Assembly (NCBI GenBank): GCA_902616715.1
Contig: CACMTR010000001.1
Location: 186,001-250,000, forward strand
Reading direction: 5' to 3'
Origin: an uncultured SAR86 cluster bacterium
Lineage (GTDB): Bacteria > Pseudomonadota > Gammaproteobacteria > Magnimaribacterales > AG-339-G14
DNA length: 64,000 bases
Of the stretch, positions 8,977-31,892 are shown piece after piece; the first letter of the stretch is position 1, and each line of letters opens with the position of its first letter. Made by a program: the position numbers and the translations under genes. The notes under the pieces are model-generated. The model ran no database searches. It was not told the origin of the DNA and was given only the letters and a program-made list of their open reading frames with translations.

Positions 8977-9005
8977 ATGTAACTTAAATGTAACATATTT
9001 GTCAA
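8977..9005 (+). promoter_or_regulatory. Triple Pho-box-like direct repeat
   Basis: Three 7-base half sites spaced exactly 11 bases apart: ATGTAAC (8977-8983), ATGTAAC (8988-8994) and TTGTCAA (8999-9005), separated by AT-only 4-base spacers. This is the geometry PhoB needs. Ten bases after the third unit lies TTTAGT (9016-9021), a possible -10. It points toward the lipoprotein gene at 9204 and forms a second, more distal box. Confidence 0.55.
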
Positions 9006-9131: not shown

Positions 9132-9165
9132 ACGTAACATTTCTGTCACTATCTATTTGTAAGAT
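9132..9165 (+). promoter_or_regulatory. Pho box and -10 for the lipoprotein-TonB operon
   Basis: ACGTAAC (9132-9138), spacer ATTT, CTGTCAC (9143-9149) give two half sites 11 bases apart, close to the Escherichia Pho box. Exactly 10 bases later is TAAGAT (9160-9165), a good -10 element, as in PhoB-dependent promoters where the box replaces the -35. Transcription would begin around 9172, some 30 bases before the ATG at 9204. Confidence 0.7.
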
Positions 9166-12181: not shown

Positions 12182-14812
12182 ATGAAATCTACAAAAAAAA
12201 TAAATAAAATCATGGGTTTTTTAAAGTTTGCTTTACCCTTCATAATAGTTTTTCCATTATTTATTAATGCTCAAGAAACTGAACAATCTCAGGAAACTGA
12301 AGAATTGGTTGTGAGTGGATCTTTTATACCAGATGCAAAAAGGAATACATCTGAGATTTCTGCAATATTAGATTCGTCAGATATCGAAAGAGCTGGTGAT
12401 GACAATATTGCTATCGCCCTTACAAGACTTGCGGGTCTTAGTCTAGTGCGAGGTAAATACGTATTTGTTAGAGGTTTAGGTGATAGATATTCATCTGCTT
12501 CACTTAACGGCCTTAATCTTCCAAGCCCAGAACCACTCAAAAGAGTTGTACCACTTGATCTTTTTCCAACAAGCATCATTGAATCGTCTGTAGTACAAAA
12601 AACCTATTCAGCTGACATGCCTGGTGAGTTTGGTGGAGGTATGGTTGAGATAAAAACAAAGGCTGTGCCTTTAGATAGAATCTTTGAATTTTCAGCTTCA
12701 ACAAGCTTCAACTCCGCTACTTCGTTAAAAGATGATGGGTTGATGTACGACGGCGGAGAGAATAATTTTGGGTACGATGACGGGATCAGATCAGTTCCAA
12801 GCAGTATTCAGGACGCTATCAATAGCAACCTTAAACTTGATAGATCGAACTTTAGTTCAACACAATTGGCTAACTTTGGTCGAGATTTTGAAAATTCAAA
12901 GCTTTGGGTTTTACAATCAGGAGAGGTTCCTCTAGATCAATCTTATAGTTTAACTTATGGAGATAGTCTCGACGGTTTAGGAATTGGTCAAATCATTGGT
13001 ATTCCAAGTGCAACAATGGGATTTATGGTTACAGCAGGTTACAAAAATTCTTGGGATACACAAGAAGGAATCAGACAAACCGGTGATTTACAAAGTCAAG
13101 GCGGTACTGTTAATGTAATAGTTCAAAATGACAAAACTTTTAGAAGCACAACGAATGACATTACAGCATATGCAATGGCTGTTCTTGGGGTTGAAACGGA
13201 TTTATCTGAATTAAAATACACCGGATTATATATTCATAAAGGATCAAAAGAAGCTCGTATCTTGCAAGGGTATGACTCAAGTGATTCAGCTAATGTTCGA
13301 GAAGATTTTCTAGAATTTTACGAAAGAGAATTAACAAATCATCAGTTAAATTTTAATAAGTCTTTTGAAAATGGCTGGAATTTAAATGTAGGTTTGGGTG
13401 ATGGAGAGGCAGAGAGAGACTCTCCATACGAAAGAGTTGTTTTCTATGAAGATGGAAACAATGACGGAGTTTACTTATACGATGTTAATACAGGTAGGAA
13501 CCAAACCCAGTTTAGTATGGTCGAAGATCAAACTACAAATGTTGTTATAGATTTAGAGATACCCTTTGGTTCTTCAACATTTTTAAGAGCTGGAATTGAA
13601 AGTCTTGAAAATGACAGATCGGCTGAAGTTAGAAGCTATAGATTTCTGGCTGCTGGCGGTCCCATACCTCAAGATGGTCTAGATAATAGAATAGATTATA
13701 TTTTTGCTGATCAAAATTTTGATCCTAATAGATTGTTGGTAATTGAGAATACGGCAAGTTCATCGCCAGCTGGGTACTTAGGATTATTGGAAGTTGATTC
13801 AACGTATATCAGCGTTGAATCTCAAATTGGAGATAATTTTGAAATTACTGCTGGAATAAGGCATGAAGATGGCCTTCAGCAAGTTAATACATTTGATTTA
13901 TTTACAGGCGTTGACTCTACTATTGATAAATCAATAGAAGAAGATTATCAGCTACCTTCAATGACATTAACTTATCTTCCTGAATTTGATGAAAACCTTC
14001 AAATTAGATTGGGTCTTTCTCAGACAATTGCTAGGCCAACCTTCAGAGAGCTTTCTCCGACACTATTTATTGATGTTGATACTGACAGAGTAATAGCTGG
14101 TTCACTATATTTGCAAAATAGTGAGATTGACAATATTGATTTAAGAGCTGAATACTATTTTGGTTTAAATCAATTTTTAACAGCTGGAATTTTTTATAAG
14201 GATATTCTTAATCCTATCGAAGAAACTGTTAATGAGTCAGGTGATTTAATTATTACTTCTTACCAAAACGTTCCTTCGGCTGAAATCACTGGTTTTGAAA
14301 TTGAATATGAGCAAATATTTGAGGCGATTATGGACTCTAATAACGACTTAATCGTTAAGTTCAATTATACGGATACTGACTCTGAAGTAATTGTGAATCC
14401 TGGAGATACTTATATAAATAATCTTGGTACTTCAGTAAATGCTCAAACTCTTCTAGCGAACGGAAGAGATACCAGATTACAGGGTCAATCAGATACAATT
14501 GCAAACTTTCAAATTGGTTTAGATAATTTACAAGATCAATCTGAAGCCACCCTAATCTTTAACTATGTTAGTGATAGAGTAAGGGCTAGAGGTGTTGATG
14601 TTTTACCAGATATTATTGAAGAACCTCCATTATTGGTTGATTTTACATATTCAAGAGTTTTAGCTTACCCTAATTACGATTTGAAATTGTCGCTTGAATT
14701 AAGAAACTTACTTGACGAGGAGTACTATGCTTCTATGAGAAATATTGCAATATATGATCAATATGATCTTGGTCAATCAGCTTCATTAGGATTTAAAGTC
14801 TTATTTAAATAA
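12182..14812 (+). CDS. TonB-dependent outer-membrane receptor (partner of the lipoprotein)
   Basis: An 876-residue receptor. A signal sequence (about 1-30, ending INAQ) is followed by a TonB-box-like TEELVVSGSF and the plug domain with FVRGLGDRYSSASLNGLNLPSPEP. A 22-strand barrel region follows, and the protein ends in an aromatic residue (GFKVLFK), the usual outer-membrane signature. The RGLGDRYSS / SPEP plug type is a distinct receptor subgroup. A GGAG ribosome binding site lies before the ATG. The short gap after the lipoprotein gene and the shared Pho-box promoter suggest one operon for a phosphorus-containing ligand. The ligand itself cannot be read from sequence. Confidence 0.9.
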   Translation: MKSTKKINKIMGFLKFALPFIIVFPLFINAQETEQSQETEELVVSGSFIPDAKRNTSEISAILDSSDIERAGDDNIAIALTRLAGLSLVRGKYVFVRGLGDRYSSASLNGLNLPSPEPLKRVVPLDLFPTSIIESSVVQKTYSADMPGEFGGGMVEIKTKAVPLDRIFEFSASTSFNSATSLKDDGLMYDGGENNFGYDDGIRSVPSSIQDAINSNLKLDRSNFSSTQLANFGRDFENSKLWVLQSGEVPLDQSYSLTYGDSLDGLGIGQIIGIPSATMGFMVTAGYKNSWDTQEGIRQTGDLQSQGGTVNVIVQNDKTFRSTTNDITAYAMAVLGVETDLSELKYTGLYIHKGSKEARILQGYDSSDSANVREDFLEFYERELTNHQLNFNKSFENGWNLNVGLGDGEAERDSPYERVVFYEDGNNDGVYLYDVNTGRNQTQFSMVEDQTTNVVIDLEIPFGSSTFLRAGIESLENDRSAEVRSYRFLAAGGPIPQDGLDNRIDYIFADQNFDPNRLLVIENTASSSPAGYLGLLEVDSTYISVESQIGDNFEITAGIRHEDGLQQVNTFDLFTGVDSTIDKSIEEDYQLPSMTLTYLPEFDENLQIRLGLSQTIARPTFRELSPTLFIDVDTDRVIAGSLYLQNSEIDNIDLRAEYYFGLNQFLTAGIFYKDILNPIEETVNESGDLIITSYQNVPSAEITGFEIEYEQIFEAIMDSNNDLIVKFNYTDTDSEVIVNPGDTYINNLGTSVNAQTLLANGRDTRLQGQSDTIANFQIGLDNLQDQSEATLIFNYVSDRVRARGVDVLPDIIEEPPLLVDFTYSRVLAYPNYDLKLSLELRNLLDEEYYASMRNIAIYDQYDLGQSASLGFKVLFK

Positions 14813-16226: not shown

Positions 16227-16301
16227 ATGAAATTTTTATTTTTAATCTGCTTTCCATCTGAATTGTTCTCATTAATTTATTCATTCGTCACATACCTGTA
16301 A
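16227..16301 (+). CDS. 24-codon leader ORF or gene relic
   Basis: ATG 16227 follows the PiT-like leader at the same relative place as the PiT start codon. It opens 24 hydrophobic residues (MKFLFLICFPSELFSLIY...) and stops with a TAA lying inside the Pho half site CTGTAAC. It looks like the first codons of a lost gene, or a signal-like leader peptide. Translation is unproven. Confidence 0.25.
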   Translation: MKFLFLICFPSELFSLIYSFVTYL

Positions 16302-16318
16302 CAATTTTTATTTAAAGT
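16285..16318 (+). promoter_or_regulatory. Pho box and -10 for TonB receptor 2 / phytase
   Basis: TCGTCAC (16285-16291), spacer ATAC, CTGTAAC (16296-16302): two half sites 11 bases apart. TAAAGT (16313-16318) follows exactly 10 bases later as the -10. Transcription would begin near 16325, ahead of the ATG at 16352. Geometry is identical to the promoter at 9132. Confidence 0.7.
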
Positions 16319-16351: not shown

Positions 16352-18907
16352 ATGAAAAAAATATATTTATTTCTTTTAATTTTTGCAAACCCTTTCGTTT
16401 TTTCACAAGAAGACTCAGAAAATATTGAGGAATTATTTGTAGTTGGAACAAAAGCCAGCATTATCTCTGCTATAGAAAAGCAAAGGGAATCCGATCAGAT
16501 TATATCTGTTATAGATTCAGATGCATTAGGTGAATTTCCAGATACTACCGCAGCAGAGGCTTTAAGAAGAATCTCAGGTATTTCAGTTGAAAACGATCAA
16601 GGTGAGGGCCGCTATGTTACTGTTAGAGGTCTCTCGGGAGACTTAAACAATATTTCTGTTAATGGCGCTACTGTTCCTGCACCAGAAGGTGGAAGAAAAG
16701 TGATGCTTGACGGTCTACCAACAGAACTTTTAGATTCTATTGAAGTATACAAATCTTTAACTCCTGATCAAGATCTTGATTCTATTGGCGGAAAAGTTGA
16801 GTTTAATACGAAAAGTGCTCTAGACTTGGACGGGACGTATTTCAAATTAAAAGCAAATACTTTGTACAACGATCAAACATATAATAGTAGTAATCCTAAA
16901 ATCTCCCTTACCTATGGAGATATGATTAGTGAAAATGTAGGACATATAATTGGTCTTACTTATTCTGAAAAACAAGTAATTACTTACAACAATGAAACCG
17001 GTTTTCCAGCCTGGAAGCTCATTAGTGGAAACTATGCAATAGATGACGATTTTGAAAGCAGATACTATGATTTAACCAGAGAAAGATTAGGAATTACTTA
17101 CGACATTGACTATAGGATGAATGACGAATCTTCTATCTATGCAAGCATTTTATGGAATGAATACGTGGATGATGAGCTCAGATATAAAGACGAGTATAAA
17201 ATGAGAGAAGAACAAACTAATGTTACTGCTACAGGAAGTACTATTACTGAAATAAGAAGAGATGCAGAAGTAAGAGTTAGGGAGGAGCTTAGAACAATCA
17301 GAACATTTATTCTAGGTGGTAACACAATAGTCAACGGTTGGGATGCAGAGTTTGCACTTTCGAGTTCTTTTGCTGAAGAAGATGATACCGACAATGTTGA
17401 TGCAAAGTTTAGAAGTAGTACATTTGATGCAGGTGATTGTGGAGGACTTTGCGGATCTTTTGATTATTCAAATCCTCAAAAACCACGTATGACTCTAGCT
17501 ACTGCAATTACTACTGGGGCTGGAAATATTTATGATCCAGCAAGCATGGGAGTAGATGAGATTGAAGAGGAAGATTCTGTAATTCAAGACAGAGTGTCAT
17601 CATTTAAGGCTGATTTTACAAAAGAAGGCTTTATGGTTTCTGACATTCCAACGACTTTAAAATTTGGCTTCAAATATAGCACTCGAGAAAAAGAAAAAAC
17701 TGTTTCAGGTTTCGCTTCGGAACCTAACACTAATCAATCAGATTACAATCCAATCACTACACCTGTTAACTGGCCTTTTCCAAACGTTTTTGGTCCCATG
17801 GCAGATCCTGCAACAATCTTCGCTCTTCAGGGCACATTTGGTGCATTAACAAATAACTATGCAAAACCTAACTTTGACAATGATTTTGTTTCTGAAGAAG
17901 ATATCACAGCACTTTATTTAATGGGCACAATGGAATTTGAAAATGCTGTTGTGATTGCTGGTCTAAGGGCAGAGGACACTTCATTTGATACACTTGGATA
18001 CAATAAAGAAGATGACTCTATTATTAGAGCATCTAAAAATTACACATTCGTATCACCAAGTGTAAACGTAAAATACTTCGTCAATGACGACACAATAGTT
18101 CGTGGGGCAATTTGGCGATCTTTATCTAGACCTGGATTCGGTGAAACTGCTCCTGTAGCAGACTTTGAATCGGATGGAACTGCAGCGGATGGAAGTACAA
18201 TCTATAAGGGAGAAATGGGTAATCCTGACTTAGAACCATATGAATCTACAAATCTGGATCTTATCTTTGAAAAATATTATGACAATGGCGCAGTATCATT
18301 AGGTTATTTTAGGAAAGATGTTAAAAACGCTATTTATCCTCAGGTTACAGCAGGTGTTGTTGGAGGGATTAACTTTAACGAATTAGAAACATACATTAAC
18401 AGCGAAAAGTCATCAGTTAATGGAATAGAATTCAATTTTTTCAGGGAATTTGTGGATCTTCCTGAACCATTTGATGGTTTATTCATCTCAGTCAATTTAA
18501 CTAAAGTTGACGCTGAAAGTGATGTTCCTAGCGCTGCCGGTGTGTTTACCGTTCCATTTAGAAAACTCGCTGATAGCACAGAAAATTTATCAATTGGTTA
18601 CGACAAAGGAAAGGTTGACATGAGACTCTCAGTAGCTCGAAGAAGTGATTACTTAGATTATCTTGCTGATGATGACATAGAAACTACTGTAGATGATCTA
18701 AATTATGACAATATCAGATTTACTGACGATCATTCGCAAATAGACTTTACAGCCAAGTACTATTTGAATGACAATTTAACTCTTAAATTAGACTTAATTA
18801 ATATAAATGACGAACCAGAATTTTATTATTGGGGCAGTCCTTCAAGACTTTCCCAATATGATGAATATGGTAGAAGCGCGACAATTGGTTTCACTTATAA
18901 GTACTAA
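16352..18907 (+). CDS. TonB-dependent receptor next to phytase (predicted inositol-phosphate uptake)
   Basis: An 851-residue receptor. The signal peptide ends around VFSQ, followed by an EELFVVGTK TonB-box region. The plug contains TTAAEALRRISGISVEND, YVTVRGLSGDLNNISVNG and SIGGKVEFNTKSA. A long barrel follows, ending in GFTYKY with the terminal aromatic residue. This plug type (RGL, PAPEGGRK) is found in large marine TonB families. It is followed directly by a beta-propeller phytase, an association known in Shewanella and xanthomonads. Uptake of phytate or its lower inositol phosphates is therefore the leading inference. Preceded by a Pho box. Confidence 0.88.
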   Translation: MKKIYLFLLIFANPFVFSQEDSENIEELFVVGTKASIISAIEKQRESDQIISVIDSDALGEFPDTTAAEALRRISGISVENDQGEGRYVTVRGLSGDLNNISVNGATVPAPEGGRKVMLDGLPTELLDSIEVYKSLTPDQDLDSIGGKVEFNTKSALDLDGTYFKLKANTLYNDQTYNSSNPKISLTYGDMISENVGHIIGLTYSEKQVITYNNETGFPAWKLISGNYAIDDDFESRYYDLTRERLGITYDIDYRMNDESSIYASILWNEYVDDELRYKDEYKMREEQTNVTATGSTITEIRRDAEVRVREELRTIRTFILGGNTIVNGWDAEFALSSSFAEEDDTDNVDAKFRSSTFDAGDCGGLCGSFDYSNPQKPRMTLATAITTGAGNIYDPASMGVDEIEEEDSVIQDRVSSFKADFTKEGFMVSDIPTTLKFGFKYSTREKEKTVSGFASEPNTNQSDYNPITTPVNWPFPNVFGPMADPATIFALQGTFGALTNNYAKPNFDNDFVSEEDITALYLMGTMEFENAVVIAGLRAEDTSFDTLGYNKEDDSIIRASKNYTFVSPSVNVKYFVNDDTIVRGAIWRSLSRPGFGETAPVADFESDGTAADGSTIYKGEMGNPDLEPYESTNLDLIFEKYYDNGAVSLGYFRKDVKNAIYPQVTAGVVGGINFNELETYINSEKSSVNGIEFNFFREFVDLPEPFDGLFISVNLTKVDAESDVPSAAGVFTVPFRKLADSTENLSIGYDKGKVDMRLSVARRSDYLDYLADDDIETTVDDLNYDNIRFTDDHSQIDFTAKYYLNDNLTLKLDLININDEPEFYYWGSPSRLSQYDEYGRSATIGFTYKY

Positions 18908-19988
18908 AAATTATTTTCCCCCTAAAAAGGCAAGTTTCATACTTGCCTTTTTATTGTCTACTCTTACTTTTGCAGATTATGTCGAGGTTGAGGCAATTTA
19001 CGAGACACCGCCAGTTATAACGGAGGGAGATGCAGCCGATGATCCTGCAATATGGGTAAATAAAAATAATCCTTCAAATTCAATTATCTTTGGAACTGAT
19101 AAAAAAAGCGGAATTTATAGTTACAATCTTCAAGGACAAGAGTTGAGCTATACAAATCTTGGTAGGATTAATAATATTGATACAAGAAGTATGAATCTTG
19201 GTGACGATGAGAATGTCTCTGATTTTACTTTCCTTTTTGGGTCTAATAGAACATTAGGATCGGTAGATTTATGGGTATTTGAAGATAATAAAACAAGACA
19301 AAAACTTAAAAATAATTTATGGGAAGTTCCATCAAAACCATCATTTAGAGGCAAATCAAATATTATCGTATACGGTATATGCGCTGGAATCGATCCAAAG
19401 TATGGATTGGTTGCTTTTTTAACAGAAGACACTGGTCCGCGAGTTGAAGTATGGAACCTGACTGATAATGGCCTCGATCTTATAACAACTTTTAATAATG
19501 GTGGAGAATCGGAAGGGTGTGTTTATGATGATTTCAATAGAACTCTTTTTATATCAGAAGAAGAAGTAAGAGGGGTTTTAAAAGCTTATAGACTCGATGA
19601 TAGTTTTGATTTCTCTGAGCCTTATATTGTCGATTCTAGAGAAGGTCAAATTGGTGGCGATCCAGAGGGTGTATCTTTATATAAAACATCAAACAATTCA
19701 GGTTATTTAATTTTATCCTCTCAAGGCGATAGTAAATTTAATTTGTATGATAGGAATTATCCATATGATTATATAACCAGTTTTAGAATAGGTTCTTCAA
19801 AAAGAATAGACAATGTTACTGATACTGACGGTATAGAAACAATCAACTTTAAACTGAGTGATGAGTATCCAGAAGGTATTATGATTGCACAAGATGGTCT
19901 TAATAAAGATGGGTATAAAACTAAAAGACAAAACTTTAAAATTGTCTCTTTCAAAGATGTGCTTGATGCTATAAATGTTCCTAGATAA
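18885..19988 (+). CDS. Beta-propeller phytase (3-phytase)
   Basis: Calcium-dependent six-bladed propeller phytase that removes phosphates from phytate outside the cytoplasm. Typical motifs are GDAADDPAIWVN, FGTDKKSGIYSYNLQG, EDTGPRVEVWNL, SEGCVYDD, ISEEEVRGVLKAY, DPEGVSLY and LSSQGDSKFNLYDR. The signal peptide is KKASFILAFLLSTLTFA with cleavage before DYVEV. Any in-frame start must overlap the receptor gene. TTG 18885 gives a 29-residue signal peptide; ATG 18867 and ATG 18807 are alternatives. No start other than a signal-less TTG exists after the receptor stop. The signal peptide is encoded by a terminator-like hairpin. Confidence 0.88.
   Translation: MVSLISTKNYFPPKKASFILAFLLSTLTFADYVEVEAIYETPPVITEGDAADDPAIWVNKNNPSNSIIFGTDKKSGIYSYNLQGQELSYTNLGRINNIDTRSMNLGDDENVSDFTFLFGSNRTLGSVDLWVFEDNKTRQKLKNNLWEVPSKPSFRGKSNIIVYGICAGIDPKYGLVAFLTEDTGPRVEVWNLTDNGLDLITTFNNGGESEGCVYDDFNRTLFISEEEVRGVLKAYRLDDSFDFSEPYIVDSREGQIGGDPEGVSLYKTSNNSGYLILSSQGDSKFNLYDRNYPYDYITSFRIGSSKRIDNVTDTDGIETINFKLSDEYPEGIMIAQDGLNKDGYKTKRQNFKIVSFKDVLDAINVPR
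18924..18952 (+). terminator. Terminator-shaped hairpin inside the phytase signal-peptide codons
   Basis: AAAAAGGCAAGT (18924-18935) pairs perfectly over 12 bp with ACTTGCCTTTTT (18941-18952) around the loop TTCAT, and ends in five T. It lies 17 bases after the receptor stop, where a terminator is expected. It closely resembles the terminators at 8457 and 14881, yet it is translated as part of the phytase signal peptide. It could cause partial termination between receptor and phytase. Confidence 0.7.
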
Positions 19989-20181: not shown

Positions 20182-20221
20182 GTGTCAATTATGTGACATA
20201 AAAGTGTCAATAAAGTTACAA
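20182..20221 (+). promoter_or_regulatory. Four tandem Pho half sites
   Basis: GTGTCAA (20182-20188), GTGACAT (20193-20199), GTGTCAA (20204-20210) and GTTACAA (20215-20221) are spaced exactly 11 bases apart, separated by AT-only spacers. This is the longest such array in the window. The hexamer AATAGT (20221-20226) is 10 bases after the third unit and could be a weak -10. The array ends five bases before the ATG of the small ORF. Confidence 0.6.
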
Positions 20222-20226
20222 ATAGT

Positions 20227-20352
20227 ATGAATACTAAAACCGTTCTTAAAGATCAAAGATTAATACCTGCAAAGTCTCAAGTGCAAGAGATGGTTATATT
20301 TGGTTTTATTTCTTTATGGATAGTTTTAGTGGCAGTTCTTTATTTTTCATAA
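20227..20352 (+). CDS. Small single-span membrane protein under Pho array (41 aa)
   Basis: A 41-codon ORF. A basic, polar N-terminus (MNTKTVLKDQRLIPAKSQ) is followed by one strongly hydrophobic span (residues 23-40, ending LYFS). Internal ATG at 20290 would give just the span. No ribosome binding site is visible before 20227, and the Pho half sites abut the start, so translation may be leaderless or begin at 20290. No family recognised. The regulatory array and the position between phytase and the phosphate permease point to a phosphate-stress small protein. Confidence 0.5.
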   Translation: MNTKTVLKDQRLIPAKSQVQEMVIFGFISLWIVLVAVLYFS

Positions 20353-20453
20353 ATATCTCTGAAAAAAAACCTAAGTCTTTTTATTTATCCATAAATTGCA
20401 AGGATTTGAATCATTCACTATTTCATATAAATTTTAATTTAATATCTAAAATT

Positions 20454-20523: not shown

Positions 20524-21774
20524 ATGGAAACTTTGTTTTTGGATCCTTTTAACATACTTTTGATTGCAGGATTTATTGGTTTTTTTATGGCTTTCGGCAT
20601 TGGGGCTAACGATGTTGCAAACTCCATGGGGACTTCTGTAGGAAGCAAAGCTATAACCCTTAAACAAGCAATAATAATTGCGGCTATTTTTGAATTTTTA
20701 GGAGCTTTTTTAGCAGGTGGAGAAGTAACTTCTACAATTAGAAAAGGCATCGTAGATCCAAATCTATATGCCAATGATGTAAATATATTTGTAATGGGCA
20801 TGATATCAGCTCTTTTAGCAGGAGGTACTTGGTTGTTTATCGCGAGTTTAAGAGGCTGGCCTGTTTCTACTACTCACTCAATAGTGGGAGCTATTATTGG
20901 TTTCGTACTAATTTCTAAGGGAGTAGATGCTGTATCTTGGGGTAAGGTTGGTAATATAGCAATGAGTTGGGTAACTTCCCCTTTATTCTCTGGAACTTTA
21001 GCTTTTGGACTCTATATATCTGCAAAAAAATTAATTTTAGATAGAGCCAATCCTGGAAAAGCAGCTATCACTTTTATTCCATTATATAGTTTTCTAGTAG
21101 CAGTCGTTATTTCACTCGTCACAGCAAGGAAAGGTCTTAAACATGTAGGAATAGAATTTTCAGAAAATGAAATTTATTTATTTACTTTAATTTTTAGCAT
21201 TATTGTTGCAACTGGAACAGCATTTTTTTTAAGAAGGAATAAAGATCAAATAATGAGAGAAGGTGGCATTGAATTTGCATTTGGTTTGCTGATGGTAGTT
21301 TCTGCTAGCGCCATGGCTTTTGCCCATGGTTCAAATGATGTTGCAAATGCAATTGGACCTTTGGCAGCAGTTGTAAGTGTTGTGGATACTGGCGAAATAG
21401 GATCTAAATCTTCGATTAGCCCATGGGTTTTACTTGTTGGAGGTATTGGGATAGTTTTTGGTTTAGCAACTCTAGGTTCCAGGGTCATCTCAACAGTCGG
21501 AAAAAAAATTACAGCTCTAACACCTAGTCTTGGCTTCTCCGCAGAAATGGCCACAGCGTCTACTGTCGTTGCTGCAACTTATCTTGGGTTTCCTATTTCA
21601 ACTACACATACACTAGTCGGTGGAGTTATAGGCGTTGGGTTAGCTAAAGGCGCAGAACACTTAGATTATGTTTCGATAAGGAGAATAATTGCTTCTTGGT
21701 TAGTAACTATTCCTACTGGTGCGGCATTTACAATTCTCTTCTATATTTTATTAAGAATAATTTTTGGTGTATAA
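20524..21774 (+). CDS. pitA: PiT-family inorganic phosphate transporter
   Basis: A 416-residue inner-membrane carrier with the two PiT signature repeats, GIGANDVANSMGTSVGSKA near the N-terminus and AHGSNDVANAIGPLAAV in the second half. Each is followed by a SWGK/PVSTTHS or PISTTHTLVGG element. PiT proteins import (metal-)phosphate with protons or, in marine forms, sodium. Around ten membrane spans are visible. It is normally constitutive in E. coli, but here a Pho-box-like promoter precedes it. It ends seven bases before the convergent gspO. Confidence 0.93.
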   Translation: METLFLDPFNILLIAGFIGFFMAFGIGANDVANSMGTSVGSKAITLKQAIIIAAIFEFLGAFLAGGEVTSTIRKGIVDPNLYANDVNIFVMGMISALLAGGTWLFIASLRGWPVSTTHSIVGAIIGFVLISKGVDAVSWGKVGNIAMSWVTSPLFSGTLAFGLYISAKKLILDRANPGKAAITFIPLYSFLVAVVISLVTARKGLKHVGIEFSENEIYLFTLIFSIIVATGTAFFLRRNKDQIMREGGIEFAFGLLMVVSASAMAFAHGSNDVANAIGPLAAVVSVVDTGEIGSKSSISPWVLLVGGIGIVFGLATLGSRVISTVGKKITALTPSLGFSAEMATASTVVAATYLGFPISTTHTLVGGVIGVGLAKGAEHLDYVSIRRIIASWLVTIPTGAAFTILFYILLRIIFGV

Positions 21775-21781
21775 AATTAAT

Positions 21782-22531
21782 TTAAAGAATAAATAATAAC
21801 CAGATTCCAGACAAAGCAATGTGCGGACCAAAAGCAATAGTTTTTTCTGAAACATTTCTTTTTTTAAAAAAATACCAAATTATTCCTGATAAAGAAGAGA
21901 CAAATAAAATAAAGGGTAAATTGTAGATACCAAAAAATAGAGATAGATTGGATATCAATATTATATCCCCCCAACCAAAAGAATCTTTCTTCAATATATA
22001 GTCTGCTAAAAATTTGATAGCAGATAACACGGCAAGGCATATCAAGAAAGAGACAAACCCTAGGCCTAAAGAAGTGAAATAAAAATTGGCAAGAATTCCA
22101 GTAAAAAAAACGATTAAATTAAGCGAGAAGGGAATTTTGAAAAAACTTTCGTCCAAGCGAGCGATTAAGATTAAGGTAAAAATAAAAAGACAATCTAAAA
22201 GAAAGATATAATTTATCGAACCTGCTTTGATCAAAATTAAGGCAAATAAAATTCCAAGCAAAATCTCGAAAAAAGGGTAACTGATTGAAATACTTTGTTT
22301 ACAAGATTTACATTTACCCATTTGAATAAAAAAACTTAAAACTGGTATGAGCGAAAATACTGATAAAGGTGCTTTGCAATTTGGACAAAACGACCTGGGA
22401 AAAGAAAGTCCCATATCTGGGAACTCCTTCAAAGCATTGCGATAATTAAGGATAATAGGCAAGCGATATGACAAGCTATTGAGAAAGCTTCCAAATATAA
22501 GTCCTAGTAAGAAAGCATATAAAATTTCCAT
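21782..22531 (-). CDS. gspO: Prepilin peptidase GspO/PilD
   Basis: Inner-membrane aspartyl protease that cleaves and N-methylates pseudopilins. The 249 residues carry the N-terminal FGSFLNSLSYRLP block, the zinc-type cysteines CPNCKAP and CKSCKQS, the first catalytic aspartate in ARLDESFF, and the second in FGWGDIILI. It is transcribed away from gspC, sharing the 97-base divergent promoter region. It is the only such peptidase in the window and would process GspG, I, J and K. Confidence 0.92.
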   Translation of the reverse strand: MEILYAFLLGLIFGSFLNSLSYRLPIILNYRNALKEFPDMGLSFPRSFCPNCKAPLSVFSLIPVLSFFIQMGKCKSCKQSISISYPFFEILLGILFALILIKAGSINYIFLLDCLFIFTLILIARLDESFFKIPFSLNLIVFFTGILANFYFTSLGLGFVSFLICLAVLSAIKFLADYILKKDSFGWGDIILISNLSLFFGIYNLPFILFVSSLSGIIWYFFKKRNVSEKTIAFGPHIALSGIWLLFIL

Positions 22532-22549
22532 AAAATAATAATATTCAAA

Positions 22550-22583
22550 TTGTCACTTAATTGTCATTCAAAATCGCATATTT
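22550..22583 (+). promoter_or_regulatory. Pho box in front of the type II secretion operon
   Basis: TTGTCAC (22550-22556), spacer TTAA, TTGTCAT (22561-22567): a clean pair of TGTCA half sites 11 bases apart. Ten bases later comes ATATTT (22578-22583), a weak -10; TATTTA one base on is an alternative. The orientation is toward gspC at 22629. Confidence 0.6.
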
Positions 22584-22628
22584 AGTAGATAATATATCCT
22601 CTTAAGGTCAAACTAGTATATTTAAAAC

Positions 22629-23459
22629 ATGAATATAAATTTTTTTAATATTTACGATAAAATCGCTGATTTCGTTTCTAAAAAGGCCAAAACAATTGTT
22701 ATTGCAATAGTTGCTTTGATATTCTCATTTGAGACTTCAAATGTAATTCTAGAGATCGTATTTTCCGATAAACCAGTTTTAAACTTGTCCCCAGTTGCAA
22801 AAATCCAAATCAAAAAGATAGATCGAAATCCTTTTATACCAAATTATGAATCGCAAAGAAATTCCAATGCTTTCTTAAACGATATTAAAGCACCAGAAAC
22901 ATCCTTATCTTTAAAGTTATTTGGCGTGACTTCCTCCGAGGACAAAAATTTTGCAATTATTGGCCTTTCTAAATCAGATCAAAAAGAATATCAGCCAGGA
23001 GATGGCATCTTAGACGATGTTTTTCTAGAATCGATACATAAAGATTATGTAACGATCAATAGATCTGGAGTTACAGAAAGTCTCTCATTTAACAAACCGA
23101 ACTTAATTTCCGGAATAGAAACAGAAATTACAAAGGATCCTCTTAATGAAAACGACAATATAATCTCTGCGGAGTGGTTATCAAATCAAAATATTTTAGA
23201 CGCGATTTCCTTTGTTCCAATTTTTTCAAACGGTGCTTTGTCAGGACTGGAAGTCAATCCTGGTGAAAATAAAGAGTTTTTTGTAAATTTAGATCTTATG
23301 CCTGGAGATGTTCTTGTATCAATAAATGGTGCTTTAGTCTCTGATTTAAATGAAAATTATCTTTCTAATTTAGAGACTTTTTTTAAAGAACCGAAGGATC
23401 TAAACCTTTCAATTTTAAGAGATAACAATCCAATTTCAATTGGAATTAAAGTTAATTAA
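22629..23459 (+). CDS. gspC: Type II secretion inner-membrane protein GspC
   Basis: Links the inner-membrane platform to the secretin. A single N-terminal span (about 22-44) is followed by the homology region (LSLKLFGVTSSEDKNFAIIG ... GDGILDDVFLESIHKDYVTINRSG). A C-terminal PDZ-like domain contains SGLEVNPGENKEFFVNLDLMPGDVLVSING. 276 residues, normal length. First gene of the operon, preceded by a Pho-box-like repeat, and eight bases ahead of gspD. Confidence 0.9.
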   Translation: MNINFFNIYDKIADFVSKKAKTIVIAIVALIFSFETSNVILEIVFSDKPVLNLSPVAKIQIKKIDRNPFIPNYESQRNSNAFLNDIKAPETSLSLKLFGVTSSEDKNFAIIGLSKSDQKEYQPGDGILDDVFLESIHKDYVTINRSGVTESLSFNKPNLISGIETEITKDPLNENDNIISAEWLSNQNILDAISFVPIFSNGALSGLEVNPGENKEFFVNLDLMPGDVLVSINGALVSDLNENYLSNLETFFKEPKDLNLSILRDNNPISIGIKVN

Positions 23460-23466: not shown

Positions 23467-25359
23467 ATGTATTTAGGAAATTACTTAAAATTATGCGCGA
23501 CTTTGACGCTTATTTTTTCTTTATATAGCCATGCTGTAACTATAAATATGCGTGATGCTGATATCAGAGCTTTTATATCTGATATTTCTTCTTTAACGGG
23601 CAAGACTTTTATAGTCGATCCAAGAATAAATGCAAAAATCACGATAATATCTAGTGAAGATTTATCTATTGATGAGGCTTATGAAGTAATGCTATCTGTT
23701 TTAGCAGTGAATGGATATGCTGCTATCGAACAAGATAACGCTACTAAAATAGTTCCTGAGATAATCGGAAGGCAATCTTTTAATTCTTTCGCTAGGTCAA
23801 ATAGCCCAGTCGATTCCTTTGTGACTGATATTATTAAACCCAAATTCGCTGCAGTGAATTCTTTGGTTTCAATACTGAGACCGATTATCTCTTCGCAGGG
23901 CCATTTGGCCGTTTATGAGCCGACTAATTCACTAATAATTGCAGACCGGGTTGGAATTGTAGAAAAGTTAAGAGGCATAATAAACGAACTTGATAAAACA
24001 CCAGGTGAAAAGTATGAGGTTGTCAAACTCAATTTTTCATCCTCAAAAGAAATCTCACAGTTAATAGATAAAATTTTCAATGAAAACCCAGGAGGAGTTA
24101 ATCCTAATCAATTTGCATCATATGCAATTGATCGAAGTAACAGCATTCTTTTAGTTGGGGATGAGCCCATAGTAGACCGGATGAAAAATCTTATTCAGAA
24201 TTTGGATACCGAGCAAAGCGGTTCGAGCACTTTAAAAGTGAAATACCTTAAATATGCCGATGCCAAATCTCTTGAAAGTATTCTTAAGAACTTATCAAAT
24301 AATTTATCTGCACAAGATAAAAGTACTAGCAAAATAACAACTAGTATCGAAGCACACGAAGGTACCAATTCATTAGTAATTTCAGCGGACCCTGAGGTAA
24401 TGTCAGCAATTGAAGATGTTATTGCGAGCTTAGATATTAAGAGGGCTCAAGTTTTGGTGGAAGCTATTATTGTTGAAATTTCAGATACTTTAGCTAACGA
24501 ATTGGGTGTCCAAATCCTTTTTTCAGGCGAAGGATCTGATACTCCAATAGTTTCTCAAAGGTTTGGAACTCCAACACCTGATTTGACAGCGATCGTTGGA
24601 GGAGAAGTTTATGACACTACATCCGGTTCATCTTCAATTCCAGCTGCAGCGCAATCACTATTAACTTTAGATGGACTTGCTGCTGGAGTAGGAAAATATA
24701 AAAAAGATGGAGAAAGTTTTGCCGCGATTCTTAATGTTCTTCGTAAAGATACTGAGTCTAATGTGTTATCTACTCCTTCTATTCTTACAATGGATAATGA
24801 AGAATCCTCAATTATAGTTGGCCAAGAAATACCTATTACAACTGGAGAATCTTTAGGTGCTGACAATACAAATCCTTTTAGAACGGTTAGTAGAGAAGAA
24901 GTTGGCGTCAAGTTACTTGTCAAGCCACAAATTAACGAAGGAAACTTTATCCGATTAGATATAGAACAGGAGGTTTCTAGTGTATTTGGACCTTTGTTAA
25001 TTGGAGCTTCTGATATAGCTACTAACAAAAGAGAAATTAAAACAGCTGTAATGGTGGAAGATAGTGAGATAATTGTTTTAGGTGGTTTAATAAGTGATGA
25101 CGTTCAGGAATCAGAAAGAAAAGTTCCTCTACTAGGTGACATACCGCTCTTAGGAAGATTATTTAAATCTACTACAACTTCAAGATCAAAAAAGAATTTA
25201 GTAGTTTTTTTAAAACCTACTATTGTTAGAGATGCAGAAGATATGCAGCTAATAACTAATGAAAAATATAATTTACTTAAAGCTGAGCAAATTTTAAAAA
25301 CAAAAAGAGGCAGGCCTACACCAGACTTGAAAGTTTTAGAAGACTTGATAACCGATTAA
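23467..25359 (+). CDS. gspD: Type II secretion secretin GspD
   Basis: Outer-membrane secretin of 630 residues. A signal peptide (about 1-23, ending YSHA) precedes the N0 domain ([29 protein letters not shown]) and N1-N3 domains. The secretin barrel motif is [30 protein letters not shown]. No long C-terminal pilotin-binding S domain is evident after the [10 protein letters not shown] end of the barrel. This could fit a system without a GspS pilotin, though that is an inference. Confidence 0.94.
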
Positions 25360-25372: not shown

Positions 25373-26743
25373 ATGAGAAATCAAGACATAGATCTAAGTT
25401 ATAAATATTGCAAAGATAATCAAGTCCTTTTGGAAAAAGAAGAAAACTTACTTTCAATTAAATGCACTGAAGACACAAAAATTTCTGCAATCTCTTATTT
25501 ACAAAAATATTTTGATTTGCCTTTAAATGTATCGAAAATTTCATTTCAAGATTTCAATAAAGCTTTATCGGAAAGTTTTACAAATAGCACATCTTCATCT
25601 GAAGATTTAATTCAAGGAGTTGATGAAAATGTTGATCTCGATTCATTGGTGTCTAACTTACCTAAAACGGAAGATTTACTGGATGATAGTAATGAAGCAC
25701 CAGTAATACGATTAATCAATGCAATCTTATCTGAAGCAATCAAGGATGGAGCATCCGATATTCATATTGAGCCATACGAAGAGAACTTAGCGATAAGATT
25801 TAGAGTTGATGGAATTCTTAAAGAGAAACTAAATCCCAATAGCAGGATTGCACCGCTTCTCAATGCAAGAATAAAAGTGATGTCCAATTTAGATATAGCC
25901 GAAAGAAGAATGCCTCAGGATGGAAGAATGTCCTTAAAACTGGGAGAAAAATGGATTGATATAAGAGTGTCAACTTTGCCATCAAGCTTTGGAGAAAGGC
26001 TAGTTTTGAGATTGCTTGATAAGGCAGATGCAAGCTTGGATTTAAGAGAACTAGGTATGAGCGATGAAATGACTAAAGATTATTTAGATCAGCTGAAAAG
26101 TACAAGTGGAATAATTTTAGTAACGGGACCGACAGGCTCAGGTAAAACTACAACTCTTTATTCGGGTCTTAATTATTTAAACGATCAATCAAGAAATATC
26201 CTAACAGTTGAGGATCCAATTGAGTATGCCTTGGAAGGTATAGGCCAAACTCAAGTAAATAATAAAGTAGGTTTGTCATTTGCAAAGGGTTTGCGAGCAA
26301 TTTTGAGACAAGATCCAGATGTAGTTATGGTTGGTGAGATAAGAGACAAAGAAACTGCTGAAACGGCAATACAAGCTAGTTTAACTGGACACTTGGTCTT
26401 ATCTACAATACACACAAATGATGCTGTGGGTGCTATTACAAGATTAATAGATATGGGTGTAGAGCCCTATCTTTTAGCAAGCTCAGTCAAAATGGTAATC
26501 GCACAAAGATTAGTTAGAAAAATAGACGATGAGCAAAAATTTTCAGGAAGAGTAGGAATTTTTGAGATGATTAAAATTGATAATGATATTAAAAAACTAA
26601 TTAACGAAAACATTGATGAGGATTCAATTAGAAATAATGCTTTTAAAAAATATACATCTTTAACTAAAGATGGAGAAAACAAGGTAAAACAAGGGGTAAC
26701 TTCAGATTTAGAGTTAAAAAGAGTTCTCAAAGAAGTTGAATAA
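25373..26743 (+). CDS. gspE: Type II secretion ATPase GspE, without zinc domain
   Basis: Hexameric cytoplasmic ATPase of 456 residues. The N-terminal N1E domain is shortened. The N2E domain is [20 protein letters not shown]. Walker A is [12 protein letters not shown], the Asp box and Walker B are [14 protein letters not shown] and [13 protein letters not shown], and the His box is [12 protein letters not shown]. The tetracysteine zinc domain that normally follows the QRLVR sequence is missing. Here [22 protein letters not shown] runs straight from one flank to the other, with no cysteine. Otherwise intact; three bases before gspF. Confidence 0.94.
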
Positions 26744-26745
26744 AC

Positions 26746-27954
26746 ATGGCAAGTTTTTCTTATAAAGCTTTAGATCATAAAGGCGAAACTGAAAAAGGGT
26801 TCCTTGTAGCTGAGAATATAGACGAAGCCCAAAACGAGCTTAAAAACAGAAAACTAATTCCAATTAAGCTTAAAGAGTACAAGCAAAGAATTAATTTAAG
26901 TTTTTTTTCTTCTATCAGTAACTCAAAATTGTCTTTGATCTCTAGGCAATTATCGACATTAATCAATAGCGGAATACCAGTTGATCAGGCACTAGATTCA
27001 GTTTCTGAACAAATAGAACCCCCAAGAATTGGTAATAAATTAAGACAAGTTTCTTTAAAAGTTAAATCCGGTTATAAATTATCTGAGTCTCTTGAAGAAC
27101 ATCCTGAATCCTTCGATAGGCTTTTTTGCTCTCTTATAAAAGCAGGGGAGTCTTCAGGAGAACTAGGTAAAATTTTGGAAAAAACATCAGATTTTTTAGA
27201 AAAAAGGGCAAATATGTCTCAAGAAATAACTGGTGCTTTAGTTTATCCTCTAATTTTATTCACTGTAGCTATTGGAATAATTAGTTTATTGCTTGTCTAT
27301 GTAGTGCCAGACGTAGTCTCTCAATTTTCTAACCTTGATAGAGAGCTACCTCTTCTTACTAAGTCCCTTCTTTTCTTATCCCAGGTTCTGACAAATCCAA
27401 TTTTTCAAATATTTATAGTTTTATTTTGCTTACTTTTATATGTTCCTTTGAAATATTTTGGAACTCAGAAAGTAAAGTTCAAATTCGATGAAATTTTATT
27501 AAAAATTCCGGTCGTAAAAAATTTTTTGTTAGATGCTGATCTATCTAGATTTACTAGTTCACTCAGTCTATTAAGATTAGGTAATGTGTCTATTTTGAAT
27601 GCTTTAAAAATTTCTTCAGACACAATTTCAAATTCTTATTTAAGATCTTCGATTATTAAAGCTTCCTCAAGAGTAGGAGAGGGAGAATCCCTAGCAAAAT
27701 CTCTTGGAAGAGTTAACGCTATCCCGCCTTTGGTGATTCAAATGATTCAAAATGGAGAAAAATCGGGAAAATTAGAAGATATGCTATCTAAATTATCTGA
27801 TTATTTAGAGACGAGATTTAGAAATTCTACAAAAATTGCTATGAATCTTTTTGAACCATTGGTTATTATAATTTTAGGAGTTTTTGTGGCTCTAATTGTT
27901 TTAGCAATCCTCTTACCATTAATACAATTAAATACATTTACAACAACGATATGA
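26746..27954 (+). CDS. gspF: Type II secretion platform protein GspF
   Basis: Polytopic inner-membrane protein of 402 residues with two homologous cytoplasmic GspF domains. One contains LSRQLSTLINSGIPVDQAL, the other FTSSLSLLRLGNVSILNAL. Three membrane spans lie at about 165-190, 220-240 and 370-395. The N-terminus MASFSYKALDHKGETEKGF is family-typical. The stop overlaps the start of gspG by four bases. Confidence 0.94.
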   Translation: MASFSYKALDHKGETEKGFLVAENIDEAQNELKNRKLIPIKLKEYKQRINLSFFSSISNSKLSLISRQLSTLINSGIPVDQALDSVSEQIEPPRIGNKLRQVSLKVKSGYKLSESLEEHPESFDRLFCSLIKAGESSGELGKILEKTSDFLEKRANMSQEITGALVYPLILFTVAIGIISLLLVYVVPDVVSQFSNLDRELPLLTKSLLFLSQVLTNPIFQIFIVLFCLLLYVPLKYFGTQKVKFKFDEILLKIPVVKNFLLDADLSRFTSSLSLLRLGNVSILNALKISSDTISNSYLRSSIIKASSRVGEGESLAKSLGRVNAIPPLVIQMIQNGEKSGKLEDMLSKLSDYLETRFRNSTKIAMNLFEPLVIIILGVFVALIVLAILLPLIQLNTFTTTI

Positions 27955-28403
27955 ATATTAATAAAAATAAAAAAGTTAACTCTAAATCTTTAGAAAATGG
28001 TTTTAGTTTGATAGAAATTTTAGTAGTTTTAATGATTATTGGAATGTTAACTGCGGTTGTTGCAATCAATGTTTTGCCAAGCCAAGATAGAGCAAGAGTC
28101 GACAAAGCTAAAGCTGACATAAGAATAATAGAGCAAGCCTTAGAGCTATATAGATTAGATATGTTTTCTTATCCAACTGAGCAGGAAGGTTTGAAGGCAT
28201 TAATTGAAAAACCTGCAAATAATAGATTTTCAGATAGGTACAGACAGGGTGGGTATATAAAAAGATTAGAAGCCGATCCTTGGGGCAATGACTATTTATA
28301 TGAAAGACCAGGAAAAAATAATACATTTGACATTATTTCATTAGGAGCTGATGGTCAAAAAGGCGGCGATGGTTTAGACAGCGACATATCTAATTGGGAC
28401 TGA
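27951..28403 (+). CDS. gspG: Major pseudopilin GspG
   Basis: Main pseudopilus subunit of 150 residues. A short leader precedes the prepilin cleavage site G|FSLIEILVVLMIIGML (glutamate at mature position 5). The C-terminal calcium-binding region is DPWGNDYLYERP and SLGADGQKGGDGLDSD, both diagnostic for GspG. The leader of about 17 residues is longer than the usual 6-8. Confidence 0.95.
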   Translation: MNINKNKKVNSKSLENGFSLIEILVVLMIIGMLTAVVAINVLPSQDRARVDKAKADIRIIEQALELYRLDMFSYPTEQEGLKALIEKPANNRFSDRYRQGGYIKRLEADPWGNDYLYERPGKNNTFDIISLGADGQKGGDGLDSDISNWD

Positions 28404-28408
28404 TTTAA

Positions 28409-28759
28409 GTGAAAGGTTTCACTTTAATTGAAGTTTTAGTTTCTTTATTAATTTTATCGGTAGTGGCTGCGGCAGGGCTATCTAGTATTTCTTTCTCCAC
28501 TCAAAGCTATCTAACTTTAAAAGAAAATTTCTATACTTCTACAATTGCAGAAAATGTTTTATTACTTTCTTTTTATGATGATAATTTTCTTACTAATAAC
28601 GTTACTAGTCAGCAAGAAGTTTTAATGGGTAGTTTTTATATTTGGAAAAGAGATATCAATATTAATAAGTCTCAAAATTCCTTGAGCATATCCGTGGAAG
28701 TTAATTCTGAACTTCAATCTAATCCTTACAAACTAGAAATATTCAAAACGATAAAATGA
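28409..28759 (+). CDS. gspI: Minor pseudopilin GspI
   Basis: A 116-residue minor pseudopilin starting from GTG 28409, with the site G|FTLIEVLVSLLILS only two residues in. The AENVLLLSFY segment and the later GSFYIWKRDIN segment match the GspI pattern (AENQL ... G-x-W-x-W). It directly follows gspG; no gspH gene lies between. Its stop overlaps gspJ by four bases. Confidence 0.8.
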   Translation: MKGFTLIEVLVSLLILSVVAAAGLSSISFSTQSYLTLKENFYTSTIAENVLLLSFYDDNFLTNNVTSQQEVLMGSFYIWKRDININKSQNSLSISVEVNSELQSNPYKLEIFKTIK

Positions 28760-29328
28760 CAATTACTAAAGGTTATTCTTTGATAGAAATATTAGTAGTC
28801 CTATTAATCTTTAGTTCCATTGCAATAATTTCTGCATCATTTCTATCTTCTGCAGCAAACTCGTTTTTTCAAGTAAATTCAAAAACCGATGAACTAAGAG
28901 AGCTCATAATAGCTACGGAAATAATAAAAGAGGATCTGATTCATATTGTAAATAAGTCAACACGTAATGAATTCGGAATAAAGAAAAAATCTTTTTATTT
29001 GTCAAATGAGTTAAAACAATCAGGGAAAATAATAGAGTTTGTAAGATTTTCTTCTAGTGACGGCATAGAAGGTTTAGGGTCTCTGCACAGGGTTAAATAT
29101 ATTTTAGAAAATGGAGTGCTAAAGAGATATTCAAGTAATTTTTTAAACTCTCCATATTTAAATGATCATATAACTCTGATTCAAAACGTCAGTGAAGTTA
29201 AAATTAATAATCCATTAGTTTTTTCAAGACCAGCAAACAATTTAAACATTTTGCCAAAAATTCTTAATTTTAAAATAAAAATTAAAGAAGTCTTTTTTAA
29301 TAAAGTTTTCGTAGTTTCTAATGCTTAA
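28756..29328 (+). CDS. gspJ: Minor pseudopilin GspJ
   Basis: A 190-residue minor pseudopilin with cleavage site G|YSLIEILVVLLIFSSI and the GspJ-like globular part (TDELRELIIATEIIKEDLIHI ... FVRFSS ... LHRVKYILENGVLKR). It belongs to the pseudopilus tip complex with GspI and GspK. It overlaps both neighbouring genes by a few bases, consistent with one operon. Confidence 0.85.
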   Translation: MTITKGYSLIEILVVLLIFSSIAIISASFLSSAANSFFQVNSKTDELRELIIATEIIKEDLIHIVNKSTRNEFGIKKKSFYLSNELKQSGKIIEFVRFSSSDGIEGLGSLHRVKYILENGVLKRYSSNFLNSPYLNDHITLIQNVSEVKINNPLVFSRPANNLNILPKILNFKIKIKEVFFNKVFVVSNA

Positions 29329-30313
29329 TAAAGAATCAAAAATAAATAATGGAGCGACTCTTTTGCTAACTTTGTTTATCACAAGTATTGTTTCAATTAT
29401 AGGTTATAGGCTTTTTGATTTAACAATGTTCACATCCGAAGTGGAAAAGAGAAACCTAAGTTACCAACAATCTTTTTTAATGGCACTCAGCCTAGAATCT
29501 TACACACTTGATTTCATGAGTTCAGCTGAAAAAAGAAAATCATTATCTTTAATGACTAACAGATATGATCCATATAGCCCTATTGAAATTCCTTTGAAAA
29601 GAGGAAATATAGTGGCTCAAATCGAAGACAAAAGTGATTGTTTTAATTTGAATTTGATTGTTACAAATGATGAAGAATCAAAGACAAAAACAGTTAATCA
29701 AGATGAACTACTTTTTTTTAAAAATTTACTTTCTAGTTTAGAAATTCCAAGTGACAAGATCGAAATCATAAGCGCATCTTTAATAGATTGGATAGATGAG
29801 GATGATTTTCCTGATTATTATAATGGCGCGGAAGATTTTTATTATTCTAATTTGAAAATACCATATCTGACATCTAATCAGTATATGCAAAATATTTCGG
29901 AATTAAGAAAAGTTAAAGGCGTTACAGAGGTTATTTATAAAAAAATTGAACCGTATATATGCGCACTGCCATTAAATTTTAAGTTTATAAACATAAATTC
30001 GATTTCGCCACTAAAACCGAAAATACTGGTAGCTTTGAGTGAAAAAAAACTTTCAGATCAAGAGGCTATTTCAATCTTAGAAGATAGACCTTTAAAAGGT
30101 TATAAAAATACCGATGAGTTTTTTAATGACGAATTTGTAAAACAATCTCTTTCATCTAGTTTTTCAAGAAAGAAACTAAATGCTGAATCTTTTTATTTTA
30201 ATTTAGAATCTCAAATAAAATATGACGAATTCACATTTATAATGAACTCTAGAATCATTAAAGACGATGAAGACATGAAGATAATCTCTAGGAAAATAGG
30301 TAATTTCTTATGA
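29321..30313 (+). CDS. gspK: Pseudopilus tip protein GspK
   Basis: A 330-residue large minor pseudopilin. The N-terminal helix follows NNGATLLLTLFITSIVSIIG and lacks the usual Glu5, as is normal for GspK. The body has the SAM-like region (FKNLLSSLEIPSDKIEIISASLIDWIDEDDFPDYYNGAEDFYY) containing the acidic calcium-site residues. A late region is NISELRKVKGVTEVIYKKIEPYI. Overlaps gspJ by eight bases. Confidence 0.88.
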   Translation: MLNKESKINNGATLLLTLFITSIVSIIGYRLFDLTMFTSEVEKRNLSYQQSFLMALSLESYTLDFMSSAEKRKSLSLMTNRYDPYSPIEIPLKRGNIVAQIEDKSDCFNLNLIVTNDEESKTKTVNQDELLFFKNLLSSLEIPSDKIEIISASLIDWIDEDDFPDYYNGAEDFYYSNLKIPYLTSNQYMQNISELRKVKGVTEVIYKKIEPYICALPLNFKFININSISPLKPKILVALSEKKLSDQEAISILEDRPLKGYKNTDEFFNDEFVKQSLSSSFSRKKLNAESFYFNLESQIKYDEFTFIMNSRIIKDDEDMKIISRKIGNFL

Positions 30314-31446
30314 GTAAGGCAATTTATGTCCTTTTTAACTATTTTTCTGATGAAAAGCTTTATTTTTTGGTTAACGACAATGAAATAAAAGAATTAAAAG
30401 AAAAAGAACTCGAAAAATATTCCGATATTAAAAAAAATATTTTTTTGATATCTGACTTATTTGACTCTATAGATTTAGACTTACCTGAAACAAATTTAGC
30501 TAATCAAAAAAAAGCTATTCCATTTTTAATTCAAGATAGTTTATTAGATGATGTTAATAATTATTCTTGGCTTTTAAATACCGATGACAAAGTTCTTCTT
30601 TTAACTAGTAAAGAAAAATTAAATACTTTAATAAATAAGATAGATCTTTATTCAACATCTTCTCTGAATCCAATCGAAGCATCTTTTGATAGAGATAATT
30701 TGATAATTATTGATGATAAGGTAATTTTATCGCTCCAGAATCAATGGTATTGGTCGGGTTCGTTAGGAGTTTTCTATAATCATCTCTCTTTTATCGAAGA
30801 AAAGCTAAAAGACAAAATTATTGAAAGTCATTGTCTGATCAAGGTACCAGAAAAACTAAAAGATAAGGAATTTTTAAATTTCACCTTACATAAAGATATT
30901 CGATCTTTATGGATGGCAAATCTGCCATCTTTAAAACTAGGATTTAATATTTTACAAGGTAAATTCGAGCCTAAAATAAACTGGCTTCAAAAAATAAAGG
31001 ATTTCAGATTTTATATTATTTCTGCTTTAGCTATCTATTCTATTTTCTTGGTTTCAAATCTTATACAGTTTGGTTCATTATCAATTTTAAATTACCAATT
31101 GAATAATCAGCTTTCTGAGGTTTTTAAATTAAAATTCCCTAATGAAACAATTGAAAATGATCTTATTTCACAGGTAAATAATCTAGTAAATCTAAATTCT
31201 TACTCGAAGAAAAATTTAGATTCTTTAAGACTTTTGTCTAATGAAATCGTAATGATGGAAAATTTAAGTCTCATTTCAATTAATTCTGATGGTAGCAAAA
31301 TCACCATAGAAGTAGAAGCAGTAGATTATGACCAATTAGAAAAATTAGTGAAATTAATGTCGACCATGAATATTGACTTATCTATTGGAAGTTCTAGAAG
31401 ATTAAACAATCTATTAGTAGGAGAGCTAAATGTTAGATCTTTTTAG
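30310..31446 (+). CDS. gspL: Type II secretion protein GspL
   Basis: A 378-residue bitopic protein. The cytoplasmic actin-like part (1-230) contacts GspE, a single span lies at about 236-258 (FYIISALAIYSIFLVSNLIQF), and a small periplasmic ferredoxin-like domain ends the protein. Sequence is weakly conserved. The call rests on position between gspK and gspM, size, topology and the WQ...SG / SLKLGFNILQGKF segment typical of GspL. It overlaps gspM by 17 bases. Confidence 0.82.
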   Translation: MSKAIYVLFNYFSDEKLYFLVNDNEIKELKEKELEKYSDIKKNIFLISDLFDSIDLDLPETNLANQKKAIPFLIQDSLLDDVNNYSWLLNTDDKVLLLTSKEKLNTLINKIDLYSTSSLNPIEASFDRDNLIIIDDKVILSLQNQWYWSGSLGVFYNHLSFIEEKLKDKIIESHCLIKVPEKLKDKEFLNFTLHKDIRSLWMANLPSLKLGFNILQGKFEPKINWLQKIKDFRFYIISALAIYSIFLVSNLIQFGSLSILNYQLNNQLSEVFKLKFPNETIENDLISQVNNLVNLNSYSKKNLDSLRLLSNEIVMMENLSLISINSDGSKITIEVEAVDYDQLEKLVKLMSTMNIDLSIGSSRRLNNLLVGELNVRSF

Positions 31447-31888: not shown

Positions 31889-31892
31889 AAAA

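Follow-up and report, generated by a model that had tools for sequence, protein, structure and literature searches.

Type II secretion systems (T2SSs) linked to phosphate starvation are already known as a kind, from Hxc of Pseudomonas aeruginosa and from the ElpS/T2SS locus of Caulobacter crescentus. In addition to Xcp, P. aeruginosa has Hxc as a second T2SS, which exports LapA and LapB and, like its phosphatases, appears under phosphate limitation (Ball et al. 2002, cited in PMC9769906). In C. crescentus, the gene order is cc0170 (elpS)-cc0171-T2SS. ElpS is induced by phosphate starvation and does not need the T2SS to get to the surface; the T2SS is required only for ElpS release and is itself made constitutively, under all conditions (PMC2996285). 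The case described here, from the SAR86 clade, is new to the searchable literature; within open-licence publications, no prior description of SAR86 with a T2SS, a phytase, or phosphate starvation was found.

The window (the whole stretch of DNA that was analyzed, 64 kb) comes from SAR86, as nearly all of the closest relatives of its gspC belong to named SAR86 single-cell genomes. The SAR86 clade is abundant in the surface ocean, is uncultured, and has a very small genome. The window holds a phosphate island in the order phoBR, ppx, ppk2, lipoprotein and TonB receptor, MIP channel and LMWPc-family protein, TonB-dependent receptor (TBDR)-phytase, PHO4, and gspO/gspC. Judging from the sequence, we consider it likely that a predicted PhoB operator in the gspO/gspC gap activates gspC and coordinates the T2SS with phosphorus acquisition. 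The relevant features are as follows:

4373-5071, + strand: phoB response regulator (profile matches)
5072-6424, + strand: phoR-like sensor kinase
6412-8191, - strand: ppx (6412-7302) and ppk2 (7292-8191), the polyphosphate genes of the island
8977-9005, + strand: three Pho half sites in tandem, between orf141 and the lipoprotein gene (matrices)
9132-9149, + strand: Pho box, lipoprotein-TBDR unit; TAAGAT follows after 10 nt
9204-12152, + strand: two-repeat secreted lipoprotein, lipobox LVSC
12182-14812, + strand: TBDR adjoining the lipoprotein
16285-16302, + strand: Pho box, TBDR-phytase unit; TAAAGT follows after 10 nt
16352-18907, + strand: TBDR of the TBDR-phytase unit (TIGR01782 and PF02333 for the TBDR/phytase pair, 16352-19988)
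18807-19988, + strand: phytase (ORF; the true start is probably further in)
20182-20221, best fit on the - strand: four Pho half sites before PHO4 (matrices)
20524-21774, + strand: PHO4-family phosphate transporter (PF01384)
21782-22531, - strand: gspO, prepilin peptidase (PF06750, PF01478)
22538-22567, - strand: putative gspO promoter, ATGACA-18-TATTAT (consensus match only)
22550-22567, + strand: predicted Pho box facing gspC
22577-22582, + strand: candidate -10, CATATT, 9 nt after the box and weak
22588-22595, + strand: GATAATAT, an alternative -10-like element (comparison of relatives)
22629-23459, + strand: gspC (PF11356; TIGR01713 under cut-off)
23467-25359, + strand: gspD, secretin (TIGR02517)
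25373-26743, + strand: gspE, ATPase (PF00437; TIGR02533 just under cut-off)
26746-32615, + strand: other gsp genes, F to N, with names assigned from gene order

The T2SS core genes gspC, gspD, gspE, and gspO were identified. Among the remaining genes, gspF, gspG, gspH, and gspK match the same-order genes of members of other phyla, and the last gsp gene gives a weak T2SSN match (E = 2e-4) that falls under the cut-off. The window lipoprotein is of a family that stands before TBDR and T2SS genes elsewhere. A small secreted protein encoded at 8500-8925 (- strand) has no Pfam match; its distant homologues in genus g3 (L096 1071-1475, L094 1544-1948) have a near-perfect Pho box directly upstream, which makes it a candidate for a Pho-regulated, exported protein. 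In the gap from porin or phytase to PHO4 or MIP, two to four Pho half sites form arrays, for which the best strand faces away from PHO4 (window 20182-20221, L076 11262-11290, L077 15483, and L124 5941-5969). An antisense or small RNA that is unannotated may be transcribed from these arrays, or they may repress PHO4. A few bases past the window array starts a 41-codon ORF (20228-20353) with a hydrophobic segment, and this start is kept in g1 and g4 relatives.

The predicted Pho box, TTGTCAC-TTAA-TTGTCAT, consists of two TGTCA-type direct half sites (22550-22556 and 22561-22567) with the spacer TTAA (22557-22560) and an 11-nt period. It lies inside the 97-nt gap between the starts of gspO (22531, - strand) and gspC (22629, + strand). 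The original prediction had singled out this pair of half sites, and its sequence, coordinates, spacing, and strand are all as claimed. The 18-mer is present in a single copy in the 1,158,399-bp genome and is the sole perfect match genome-wide to YTGTCAYN4YTGTCAY. A one-mismatch consensus scan of the same genome gave five matches against three in a reversed control, which was too unspecific alone; thus, matrices were used instead. The first matrix was built from 58 PhoB sites of Escherichia coli mapped by ChIP-seq (PMC10294691) and was run over the 64-kb window. It scored the gspC box at 16.7 bits, which exceeds the median for the E. coli ChIP sites and ranks 17th against the 58 real ones. Matches scoring this well are expected 0.0003 times per 97 nt and 3.6 times per genome. 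The six top window positions (20181, 8989, 22551, 16286, 9133, and 8978), the gspC box included, are all intergenic and fall in promoters of the one phosphate island.

A second, SAR86 (clade) matrix was trained on sites before porin, TBDR-phytase, and lipoprotein genes, with gspC and window sites excluded; because its training sites were picked after the repeats had been seen, the E. coli matrix serves as the independent check. The SAR86 matrix placed the gspC box at the top of ~128,000 scored window positions (20.2 bits), and its best match outside the island promoters, inside clpA, reached 14.2 bits. With a near-identical SAR86 matrix that included two window sites, no match in 1.28 Mb of shuffled sequence reached the score of the gspC box. 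Across family f1, almost all exact boxes are located in the phosphate island. TGTCA-type direct repeats with an 11-nt period are common to the gspC box and the pho boxes of E. coli (PMC10294691), whereas SAR86 half sites read TTGTCAC or NTGTAAC and often form arrays of three or four.

The phoB gene is 17 kb away from the gspC box, and the best NCBIfam model for its product is TIGR02154, with a score under the curated cut-off. A PF00486 search retrieved one protein in the genome, PhoB itself, which is the sole OmpR-type DNA-binding protein found; as the genome is 86% complete, a second PF00486 protein is possible. The same search in 24 relatives retrieved at most one protein per genome, with no match in G040, and G055 has no full-length PhoB. 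No PstB above the family cut-off was found in the window's own genome (G000; 86% complete), which has PhoBR and PHO4 without a detected Pst transporter. The original identification of the repeat as a Pho box is backed by the two independent matrices, the nearby cognate regulator, and sister promoters with the same element; together with gene linkage, these observations mark the site as a probable PhoB operator.

When phosphate is scarce, PhoR would phosphorylate PhoB, which would bind the two head-to-tail half sites at 22550-22567. Bound PhoB would stand in for a -35 element and recruit RNA polymerase to a weak -10 located 9 or 10 bases downstream, and gspC and the T2SS genes that follow would be transcribed more strongly. 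PhoB would also drive the neighboring lipoprotein/TBDR and TBDR/phytase units; thus, under common control, the export machine would be made together with phosphorus-acquisition proteins. In the sister promoters of the island, 10 nt separate the box from the -10, which is TACATT, TAAAGT, or TAAATT in TBDR-phytase promoters and TAAGAT or TAAAGT in lipoprotein promoters; the -10 of pstS in g2 relatives is TATTAT. By comparison, the -10 at gspC is weak, with CATATT only 9 nt from the box; this position reads TATATT in G001 and G018. The -10 first proposed for gspC, ATATTT (22578-22583), does lie 10 nt past the box and is weak, but its fit to TATAAT is very poor, and CATATT is the better candidate.

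PhoB might instead bind with gspO as its main target, or with repression as its effect, and gspC might be transcribed mainly from a conserved GATAATAT start. This element is kept in 8/8 of the closest gspC promoters, whether the box is present or absent, and its retention in boxless relatives is consistent with such an arrangement. So are a box in the gspO-gspC gap of G005, which faces gspO, and the putative minus-strand gspO promoter, the -35 of which overlaps the second half site of the Pho box. However, this promoter matches the consensus within a region for which a promoter scan gives 9 sites versus 12.2 in shuffles (i.e., fewer than shuffles), and the box of the window points toward gspC at nearly the normal PhoB spacing. 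We therefore regard gspO as an unlikely main target, and repression as an unlikely effect.

The original prediction took conservation of both half sites in relatives that keep the operon as the check on the box, and the outcome is divided. An identical box was found in G001, G012, and G018, which reflects recent exchange; G009, G015, G024, and the g2 genomes have no box, which partly counts against the prediction. In G001, G012, and G018, the DNA from PHO4 through gspO is mostly 97 to 99% identical to the window (79 to 90% inside gspC). Identity of the box in these genomes was thus rejected as footprinting evidence, as recent exchange of the block means that it is no evidence of selection. Over window positions 20524-23459, PHO4-gspO is 97 to 99% identical between genera g1 and g4 and identity falls within gspC, a recombination edge in an exchangeable island. 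By the clade matrix, no gspC box above 10 bits (99% null, 11.0) was found in G009, G015, G024, G003, or 13 g2 genomes. The T2SS is kept in the same island in G009, G015, G024, and the g2 genomes; the gsp cluster of G003 lies outside the phosphate island. A sequence of the boxless relatives, CTGTAATATAGCTTTCAT, was considered as a shifted Pho box, with 17.5 bits in G015 by a seven-site E. coli matrix. It was rejected because it scores 5 to 10 bits by the clade matrix (95% null, 8.1; 99% null, 11.0) and stands at the wrong distance from the -10. Away from the phosphate island, gspC also occurs as a second or relocated copy at G001:C6:62049 (L073) and G003:C4:62995 (L072); these copies have matching neighborhoods and no Pho box, and the G001 copy has no adjoining gspO. 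On viral contigs, no T2SS relative was found.

Within family f1, the box follows the cargo of the island. The lipoprotein is present in G000, G001, G005, G012, G018, and all g3 genomes and is absent from G003, G009, G015, G024, and 11/11 tested g2 genomes. Among T2SS-bearing f1 genomes, a box was found at the gsp locus in 13/13 with the ElpS-like lipoprotein and 0/15 without it, counts that represent ~3 independent events (the shared g1/g4 block, G005, and g3) rather than 28 independent trials. The box in the gspO-gspC gap scores 20.2 bits in four genomes and 16.2 in G005; in the other lipoprotein-bearing f1 genomes, a box of 11.7 to 19.0 bits stands before the lipoprotein-TBDR-gspC run. In g3, TATATAAT lies just upstream of gspC, so gspC may or may not be co-transcribed with the lipoprotein-TBDR pair there. 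Most f1 genomes keep the frame sixA-phoBR-ppx-ppk2 ... gspO-gspC, inside which the cargo varies (porin, pstSCAB, or lipoprotein and phytase).

Close relatives that have the same island with no box at gspC, and an exchanged block that could have brought the box along without selection, would also suit a Caulobacter-like arrangement, in which the T2SS is constitutive, only its substrates are phosphate controlled, and the gspC box was carried along with little effect. Indeed, the Caulobacter T2SS is made in all conditions (PMC2996285). We consider this arrangement quite improbable, as the gspC box has the top window score by the clade matrix and, in other lineages, boxes or phoBR stand directly before gsp genes in different arrangements. 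Chance resemblance of the gspC box to a short motif could draw on the one-mismatch counts and on the 3.6 equally good E. coli-matrix matches expected per genome but is highly improbable given the 0.0003 expected in the gap, the six top window sites that all lie in island promoters, the absence of equally good clade-matrix matches in 1.28 Mb of shuffled sequence, and PhoB as the only OmpR-type regulator found.

Activation of gspC by PhoB, the reading that we prefer, can be set beside the linkage of phoB and the T2SS across SAR86. Where full-length PhoB and gspD are both present, the two genes are on one contig and <19 kb apart in 23/25 genomes. The exceptions are G024, with phoB and gspD on separate contigs, and G003. 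Three architectures were observed: gspC immediately preceded by a Pho box, a lipoprotein-TBDR-gsp unit with a Pho box in front of it, and a head-to-tail phoBR-gsp run. In family f3, phoBR is followed by lipoprotein, TBDR, and gsp genes, with boxes of 12 to 16 bits before the lipoprotein in several genomes; in G050, CTGTCACATAAATGTCACATATATGACAC lies between phoR and gsp. Family f4 (G045 and G054) has phoB, phoR, a small ORF, gspD, and gspE head to tail. The small ORF, in the position of gspC, has no Pfam match, and its flanking gaps are 3 to 16 nt. At the f4 loci L188 (2791-7512 after reversal) and L189 (3060-7786), phoB-phoR run straight into T2SS genes, possibly as a regulator-plus-machine operon. 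The loci of G040, G055, and G082 have PHO4-gspO-gspC and no boxes. Outside SAR86, gsp genes are immediately preceded by a lipoprotein-TBDR pair in 5/16 sampled Pseudomonadota loci, the same layout as at the Caulobacter elpS locus (PMC2996285). We tentatively propose that, throughout SAR86, several independent architectures tie the T2SS to the phosphate starvation response, that the system may serve the whole clade as a device for acquiring phosphorus, and that gain and loss of the Pho box may follow the cargo of an exchangeable island.

This clade-wide phoB-T2SS linkage is what makes the SAR86 case interesting. If the sole detected T2SS is phosphate controlled, what SAR86 exports would largely be a phosphorus-scavenging kit, and such control would be readable in existing metatranscriptomes along phosphate gradients. 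Candidates for export are the lipoprotein with two repeats, the phytase, and the small secreted protein encoded at 8500-8925. If the box is real, the original prediction held, the T2SS has a dedicated role in exporting phosphorus-scavenging proteins such as the phytase and the lipoprotein; this goes beyond the data, in which both are T2SS neighbors with their own predicted Pho boxes.

The SAR86 locus resembles Hxc in having a T2SS alongside phosphorus-scavenging proteins; expression under phosphate limitation has been shown for Hxc and is predicted for the SAR86 system. In contrast to Hxc, one gspD was found per SAR86 genome, in a phoBR-linked island with the lipoprotein, TBDR, and phytase. 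The Caulobacter elpS locus (PMC2996285) and the window each have a lipoprotein, a TBDR, and gspC-N in one neighborhood, and in each the lipoprotein has a link to phosphate starvation (in the window, its predicted Pho box), with the likeness of the lipoprotein to ElpS drawn from gene order and the lipobox. The elpS-TBDR-gsp order of Caulobacter (PMC2996285) is exact in f1 genus g3 and in family f3. Compared with Caulobacter (PMC2996285), the window keeps the lipoprotein-TBDR pair, but at a distance of 8 kb on the upstream side of gspC, which has a Pho box of its own.
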